Source of the DNA: Thermoanaerobacter kivui
GTDB lineage: Bacteria > Bacillota > Thermoanaerobacteria > Thermoanaerobacterales > Thermoanaerobacteraceae
Assembly (NCBI RefSeq): GCF_000763575.1
Contig: NZ_CP009170.1
Span: forward strand, 769,501 to 833,500
Length of the DNA stretch: 64,000 bases
Direction of reading: 5' to 3'
Shown: positions 57,542-58,916 of the stretch, piece by piece
Position numbering within the stretch: the first letter of the stretch is position 1
Layout of the letters: each line of letters opens with the position of its first letter
Translations under genes and position numbers: made by a program
The notes under the pieces: model-generated
Database searches by the model: none
Told to the model about the DNA's origin: nothing
What the model saw: only the letters and a program-made list of their open reading frames with translations

Positions 57542-57940
57542 TTATTTTTTTTGTTCGTCATTTTTAACAGGATTGCTTTGAGGAGATTTTAACATTTTAC
57601 ATTTGCCGTCAAAAATGGCTCCATCTTCTATTATCAAGTTTTGAACTTCTATATCGCCGGAAAGTTTTCCTGTAGAAGTAAGTTGCAATTGTCCTTTTGC
57701 AAATATGTTTCCTTTTACTTCACCGGAAAGAATGATGTTATCTGTAGTTATATTGGCTTCTACTTTAGCTGATTCGCCTATTATGATGTTGCCTTTTGTC
57801 TCTATTTGGCCAGTGAAATTACCATCTATTCTGAGGGTACCTTGTGATTTAATGGTGCCTTCAAAAGTTGAATTTTTGCCTATGACAGTGTCTATTTTGT
57901 CTGGGTTAACTTCCAAAACTTGCTCTTTCCTTTGAAACAT
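57542..57940 (-). CDS. bactofilin (polymer-forming cytoskeletal protein)
   Basis: About 132 residues. The beta-helical bactofilin core (about 15-115) shows the repeat pattern TFEGTIKSQGTLRIDGNFTG and GEVKGNIFAKGQL. Bactofilins form filaments at the membrane and often work with M23 peptidases on cell shape. The ATG at 57940 is used (GGGGAATTGAT upstream) and touches the stop of the M23 gene, a classic bactofilin/M23 pairing. Confidence 0.9.
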   Translation of the reverse strand: MFQRKEQVLEVNPDKIDTVIGKNSTFEGTIKSQGTLRIDGNFTGQIETKGNIIIGESAKVEANITTDNIILSGEVKGNIFAKGQLQLTSTGKLSGDIEVQNLIIEDGAIFDGKCKMLKSPQSNPVKNDEQKK

Positions 57941-57941
57941 A

Positions 57942-58916
57942 TCAATTCCCCTTTGCAAGATAGTTCATTGGATTTACAGGGTTGCCATTTACCCTAACTT
58001 CAAAGTGAACATGGGGCCCAGTGCTTCTTCCAGTATTTCCTGATTTTGCAATTATATCTCCTCTTTTCACAGTTTGGCCCACTTTGACGATGATTTGTGA
58101 ATTGTGTCCATAAACCGACTGAATACCATATCCGTGGTCTATTATTACAGCTTTTCCGTATCCTGAAAGCCAACCTGCGTATGTAACTACTCCTTTTCCT
58201 GCAGCTCTTACTGGAGTACCAACTGAGACTGCTATATCAATTCCTGGATGAAATTCAGTGCCATATCCGTAAGGTGACTTTCTCGTTCCAAAAGGAGAAG
58301 TGATGGTACCCTGTACTGGATAGGTACTGGGTATTGATTCGAGGTAATCCAGTCTTGCTGCTACCTTTGAAATGAGGTCTTTTAAATCTTGTGTTTTTTG
58401 ATCTATTTCTGAAGTGAGCTGTGCTGTTGTTTCATTGTCATAGGTAATGCTGCCTTCATTTCTGGCATCTCTTGAAAGGCCACCACGGCTGGTAGTTGGA
58501 GTTGACAATCCTACCATTCGCCTTACCTTTTCTTCAAGTTCATTTAAACTCTTAATTTTTTCGTTGACTAATTGTGCGTTTTTATCGAGCGTGGCAATTT
58601 TTTTGTCTTGTTCTTCTTTAATTGACGTCAATTGTGCAATTTTTTCATCTTTTTCTCTGATTACAGTATATAAATAAGAGGTGGTTTTTCCAAAATACAC
58701 TAAAGAAAGTGTAGCAGCCAGAAATATTGAAAAAGTTATTATCGCCGTCGTTTTTATAAGGGGAATAGAAACCCGTGTGAGCACCTTCCCAACGGCAACC
58801 TTAAGCGGCGCCGTCGTTTTTATAAGGGGAATAGAAACCCTAAAGCTTTTGATTTGGTGGTTTGAGTCGGGAATTATCATTATGTTTAAATATTTCTCTT
58901 TTTTCTTTTTTTTCAT
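57942..58916 (-). CDS. membrane-anchored M23 metallopeptidase with in-frame repeat-spacer insert
   Basis: 324 residues: cytoplasmic start, a membrane segment (about 58-76, AIITFSIFLAATLSLVYFG), coiled coil (about 80-185) and a LytM-type M23 domain (about 200-320) with zinc ligands in HPGID and HVHFE. It should cut peptidoglycan cross-links near a bactofilin scaffold. Odd feature: peptide RVSIPLIKTTA occurs twice (26-36 and 48-58), separated by PLKVAVGKVLT. In DNA this is a perfect 32-bp repeat around a GC-rich 34-bp spacer. The 66-bp unit keeps the frame. The catalytic domain looks intact. Confidence 0.9.
   Translation of the reverse strand: MKKKKKEKYLNIMIIPDSNHQIKSFRVSIPLIKTTAPLKVAVGKVLTRVSIPLIKTTAIITFSIFLAATLSLVYFGKTTSYLYTVIREKDEKIAQLTSIKEEQDKKIATLDKNAQLVNEKIKSLNELEEKVRRMVGLSTPTTSRGGLSRDARNEGSITYDNETTAQLTSEIDQKTQDLKDLISKVAARLDYLESIPSTYPVQGTITSPFGTRKSPYGYGTEFHPGIDIAVSVGTPVRAAGKGVVTYAGWLSGYGKAVIIDHGYGIQSVYGHNSQIIVKVGQTVKRGDIIAKSGNTGRSTGPHVHFEVRVNGNPVNPMNYLAKGN
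58743..58840. CRISPR. CRISPR-like repeat-spacer-repeat inside the M23 gene
   Basis: Two identical 32-bp copies, 58743-58774 and 58809-58840, starting CGCCGTCGTTTTTATAAGG and ending GGGGAATAGAAACCC, flank a 34-bp spacer (58775-58808) of about 60 percent GC in a gene of about 40 percent. The copy ends in GAAAC and contains GTTTTTA, as Thermoanaerobacter-type CRISPR repeats do. No second spacer copy exists, so it is not a simple tandem duplication. No cas genes are nearby. Shape is certain; CRISPR origin is inference. Confidence 0.5.

Follow-up and report, generated by a model that had tools for sequence, protein, structure and literature searches.

Cas1–Cas2 integration duplicates a repeat-sized target around the incoming spacer. 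Off-target integration, leading to neo-CRISPR loci, is said to have been described in E. coli in vivo by Nivala, Shipman and Church in 2018 (Nat Microbiol 3:310; cited in PMC9456107), who reportedly also pointed to Yersinia pestis and Sulfolobus islandicus as putative natural examples. Purified Cas1–Cas2 from S. thermophilus integrates into non-CRISPR DNA, favouring a G at the integration point and leader–repeat-like sites (PMC6895254), and off-target activity has been seen also for a type V-C Cas1 (PMC13034035).

Here we describe a repeat–spacer–repeat unit inside an M23 peptidase gene of Thermoanaerobacter kivui, located in a stretch of 64,000 nucleotides (contig NZ_CP009170.1, positions 769,501 to 833,500; hereafter the window). 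A first-pass annotation of the window had proposed an ectopic spacer integration at this place. That reading is supported by the derived state of the insert, its native dimensions, the presence of adaptation genes and the lack of a chromosomal source. Judged from the DNA sequence, the unit is very probably the scar of an off-target spacer integration. We infer that Cas1–Cas2 was its maker and that the inserted sequence was derived from a phage or plasmid.

The features of this locus (site 1) and of four further units are compiled in Table 1. As first noted in the annotation, two perfect 32-bp copies flank 34 bp, with a start-to-start pitch of 66 bp. Chance may account for as many as 2 bp of the identity, so that the unit can be divided as 32/34, 31/35, or 30/36; in only one 30/36 register does the native repeat end, ...GAAAC, fall on the border. 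The 32-bp repeat is found at just these two places in the 2,397,824-bp T. kivui genome (up to three mismatches allowed), and its 23-bp core was never produced by shuffled windows. The inserted spacer, at the same tolerance, has no second place in this genome. Its GC content had been described as about 60% and unlike that of the gene, which agrees with our values of 61% for the 36-bp cut and 39% for the gene. This composition lies in the upper tail of the native spacers, 3.9% of which are equally GC-rich.

Table 1. Coordinates and description of the site-1 features (window positions) and of the further repeat–spacer–repeat units.
Feature	Coordinates	Strand	Description
M23 peptidase gene, 324 aa	57942..58916	-	Carries the in-frame insertion after about codon 26
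Bactofilin gene beside M23 gene	57542..57958	-	Context: bactofilin–M23 pair
First copy of duplicated target	58743..58774	+	32 bp identical; the 30-bp register 58743-58772 has the GAAAC end of native CRISPR repeats
Inserted spacer, 30/36 register	58773..58808	+	61% GC; single copy in genome
Inserted spacer if the duplication is 32 bp	58775-58808	+	34 bp
Second copy of duplicated target	58809..58840	+	32 bp identical to first copy
Site 2	G000:C1 about 2369455-2369548 (L144:19456-19549)		Putative regulator gene remnant; 29-bp perfect repeats, 36-bp spacer with hairpin
Site 3	G000:C1 about 1921865 (L177:11865-11964)		Putative fdhD; in-frame unit of 69 bp, with a 38-bp spacer between 31-bp repeats (3 mismatches)
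Site 4	G000:C1 about 1413051-1413149 (L137:5052-5150)		5' end of putative mscL; 66 bp plus 1-bp indel
Site 5	G008:C1 about 904030 (L286:4030-4121)		ABC transporter ATPase gene, other Thermoanaerobacter species; 28/36, 64 bp

T. kivui contains three CRISPR arrays and type I-B plus type III cas genes (PMC12044746; genome paper PMC4320612), and CCA and CCC are active as PAMs in plasmid interference (PMC12044746). The largest array extends from 2,268,103 to 2,273,799 in the genome, the same coordinates as published for T. kivui DSM 2030 (PMC12044746). We located two cas4–cas1–cas2 sets in the genome, with full-length Pfam matches. Arrays A and B have 30-bp repeats and 153 spacers of 35–41 bp (mode 36); in array C the repeats are likewise 30 bp long and the spacers 35–39 bp (mode 37). 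The dimensions of site 1 correspond to the native ones: the duplication measures 30–32 bp versus 30 bp, the insert 34–36 bp versus a mode of 36–37 bp, and 30 + 36 gives the observed 66 bp.

Several irregularities were seen in and around the native arrays. In the middle of array B (G000:C1 about 2270855-2272399; L139), a run of repeats ending in GAAAT is bordered on either side by repeats ending in GAAAC, as would be expected had a leader-proximal repeat mutated and then reverted, or had a block been recombined in. Neighbouring spacers are duplicated in this array, and arrays A and B (L137, L139) hold spacers resembling variants of the same protospacers, e.g., ...CCCATACTGGCGGA...CTGCTA in both. 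What appears to be the remnant of an array lies at about 1405460-1405546 (G000:C1; L136), where a solitary repeat of the array-B type precedes ~36 bp and then a truncated repeat.

The first-pass annotation had named an alignment with other Thermoanaerobacter strains as a possible refutation of its reading, and this alignment found the 66-bp unit in no relative. All nine other Thermoanaerobacter genomes compared (9/9) have continuous flanks and one recognisable target copy with no insert, and the aligned members of the family also show continuous flanks without it. The spacer is likewise not a conserved coding sequence of the family in the alignment of relatives, the other possibility that the annotation had raised. 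On this comparison, the site-1 unit is a derived insertion with a target duplication of ~30 bp. Both copies in T. kivui carry substitutions that are absent in the relatives (at one edge, GGG in place of AAA on the gene strand). Since the identical copies share these T. kivui-only substitutions, the latter predate the duplication, or the copies were homogenised later.

Removal of the 66 bp leaves an open frame of 302 codons, in agreement with the proposed gain of 22 codons without a frameshift. The gene is still open, with 22 additional residues, because 66 bp (30 + 36) is a whole number of codons and no stop codon came with the insert. These residues are placed between the N-terminal tail and the membrane helix, i.e., before the membrane segment as had been predicted, and the M23 domain (residues 222–316) is unaffected. 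The neighbouring gene encodes a bactofilin. In other bacteria, the M23 protein of the bactofilin–LmdC pair binds its bactofilin through an N-terminal cytoplasmic tail (PMC10945521). The T. kivui locus is similar to this module in that a bactofilin gene adjoins a gene for a membrane-anchored M23 protein, and differs from it in the tail, which the insert has lengthened by 22 residues. The effect of the insert is unreadable from the AlphaFold model of the protein, because residues 1–57 have pLDDT values below 50.

We screened sampled stretches for direct-repeat pairs outside arrays with a pitch of 30–130. In T. kivui the stretches amounted to 1.40 Mb, or 58% of the genome, and in three relatives (G001, G008, and G009) to 0.4 Mb per genome; earlier pair screens had used stricter settings. 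Besides site 1, T. kivui yielded three units and G008 a fourth. These four additional units have duplications of 28–32 bp, spacers of 34–38 bp, and a size of 64–69 bp, and each is absent in a relative. Otherwise, almost no non-array pairs of such a shape occur in about 2.6 Mb. The remaining repeat pairs (tRNA-like repeats, coding repeats, and an inverted low-complexity repeat) were set aside, as their shape differs. Across the five sites the duplication length varies from 28 to 32 bp, in contrast to the uniform 30 bp of the array repeats. A possible further scar, from a genome within the order of T. kivui, is a 22-bp exact repeat whose copies are separated by 38 bp (pitch 60; L025:962).

Most of the gene identities at sites 2–4 were read from sequence. 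At site 2, a single copy is aligned on both sides in G006, where the downstream match continues just 16 bp past the copy. The insert at site 3 adds a cysteine-rich stretch and the unit is absent in G011; this case is weaker, because G011 belongs to a different genus. The leader end of array A is ~0.5 kb away from site 4, which lies in a gene called mscL from its conserved N-terminus. Its relatives are single-copy, several of them 98–99% identical around the site. The unit shifts the reading frame, the start codon is GTG in T. kivui versus ATG in the relatives, and the T. kivui mscL may be damaged. At site 5, the unit breaks the ATPase gene by a frameshift, and G007 provides a clean single-copy empty site with flanks of 98–100% identity.

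Site 1 came from the first-pass annotation, sites 2 and 4 from stretches adjoining CRISPR loci, and sites 3 and 5 from evenly spread samples. The figure of four units per 1.40 Mb can therefore not be read as an unbiased rate. Two units were found in about 132 kb beside CRISPR loci versus one in 1.2 Mb of spread samples, which hints, on very small numbers, at an excess of units near arrays.

The duplicated sequence had been considered close to Thermoanaerobacter CRISPR repeats. The likeness is strong only at the 3' end (10/11) and weak over the full 30 bp, where the site-1 repeat agrees with the host repeats at 15–16 of 30 positions and is, in a canonical-array test, near-identical to none of them. 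Among the three 30-bp placements, only 58743-58772 resembles the native repeat end (GGAATAGAAAC versus GGAATTGAAAC), and a 10/11 match has a background of 3.1e-5 per position. On the reverse strand, the same register matches the 5' part of the repeat at 13 of 20 positions. Testing the best of registers, strands, and repeats at site 1 gave a P value of 0.0009 with the 3' half, 0.005 with the 5' 20 bases, and 0.027 when all 30 bp were used. For the five targets pooled against the native repeats, Fisher P values were 0.0125 (30 bp) and 0.0023 (5' 20 bases), uncorrected for the several parts tried. This pooled resemblance is weak, and therefore does not explain most of the target choice. All five duplications can be cut with a G at both borders on one strand, a regularity spotted after the fact. 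Site 1 is unlikely to be a working neo-CRISPR locus, as no leader was recognised beside it by eye and its promoter-like matches are at chance level, within the range of shuffles.

The origin of the inserts was sought by sequence comparison. Searches of phages, plasmids, viral contigs, and 24 genomes of the order yielded no protospacer for site 1, and the five inserts together gave nothing beyond chance against phages and viral contigs (some also against plasmids, the own genome, and the 24 order genomes). One viral 18-mer match to an insert was rejected, with just 26 of 36 bases in agreement across the spacer. Native array B as a whole likewise has no match among phage records at E 0.1, so the missing protospacer says little. 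Compared with the native spacers of arrays A and B, the site-1 insert yields matches of only 8–10 bases. Inserts 1 and 2 have a single occurrence across the whole T. kivui genome and the 24 genomes of the order, as do inserts 3, 4, and 5 within the sampled sequence.

Other routes to the same structure have to be weighed against these data. Target duplications are typical of transposition and transposase genes are present near site 2, which would be compatible with a minimal remnant left by a different mobile element or integrase with a target duplication of about 30 bp. However, the five inserts are mutually different, none of them recurs in the sequence examined, and the target duplications of known transposons are far shorter. 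We regard this origin as very improbable, and give the same low weight to an ancestral coding repeat lost in the relatives, or a tandem duplication with a diverged middle. These readings would fit the read-through of the unit and its length, a multiple of three, yet the unit is absent from all aligned relatives in the genus and family. Furthermore, the two copies match at 100% identity, whereas the middle resembles neither the gene nor the genome. A simple tandem duplication had already been dismissed in the annotation, only the repeat being duplicated.

A repeat–insert–repeat structure would result equally if a foreign fragment of ~36 bp were joined into a double-strand break with staggered ends of ~30 nt and filled in, with no involvement of Cas1–Cas2. 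Homologues of the end-joining genes are indeed present in T. kivui, but no colonies were obtained when a repair template was omitted and efficient end joining is judged to be absent (PMC12044746). Moreover, end joining gives no reason for the lengths common to the five events, 28–32 and 34–38 bp, which are those of CRISPR repeats and spacers. We consider this route improbable, if somewhat less so than the preceding two. A sequencing or assembly artefact is the least credible of all: a single assembly of the species was compared, but no other part of the genome offers a source for the insert, the gene is still in frame, and scars of this shape are present at further loci as well as in a second species.

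Off-target spacer integration, the reading that we prefer, would proceed as follows. Cas1–Cas2 (with Cas4) would carry a prespacer of about 36 bp to the M23 gene, and both strands of the gene would be attacked about 30 bp apart, with a border sequence resembling the native repeat end. Gap filling would then copy the target on both sides, giving the repeat–spacer–repeat arrangement.

Similar scars within the genus suggest that the enzyme that writes CRISPR memory occasionally mutates ordinary genes. The CRISPR adaptation machinery of Thermoanaerobacter is probably a recurrent insertional mutagen, by which genes are either broken (mscL, ABC ATPase) or given an in-frame peptide (M23 peptidase, probably fdhD). 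Natural off-target integration is already known; its recurrence in one genus, together with empty sites and gene damage, looks new. The units would constitute natural, sequence-level evidence of Cas1–Cas2 writing spacers into genes over evolutionary time, with the empty sites preserved in relatives. This makes testable the rate at which CRISPR adaptation mutates its host, the targets accepted outside arrays, and whether new arrays or new protein segments arise from such scars. The screen itself is simple, requiring a non-array repeat–spacer–repeat of native dimensions and an empty site in a relative, and is applicable to all genomes.

With the neo-CRISPR loci reported in 2018, the units described here share the repeat-sized target duplication, the spacer-sized insert, and the location at non-array sites resembling the CRISPR locus. 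They differ in their hosts, which carry type I-B systems and belong to the genus Thermoanaerobacter, and in comprising five units with empty sites in relatives, one of them in frame in an intact gene and the others in damaged genes. Integration outside the array, at sites resembling the leader–repeat junction, is also common to purified S. thermophilus Cas1–Cas2, although that case concerns a type II-A system in vitro and probably half-site products (PMC6895254). In S. thermophilus, spacers are also acquired ectopically inside arrays, which is similar in that a spacer is added at the wrong place. This acquisition is reported to target true repeats within the array (PMC7999890), whereas the target in T. 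kivui is an ordinary gene.
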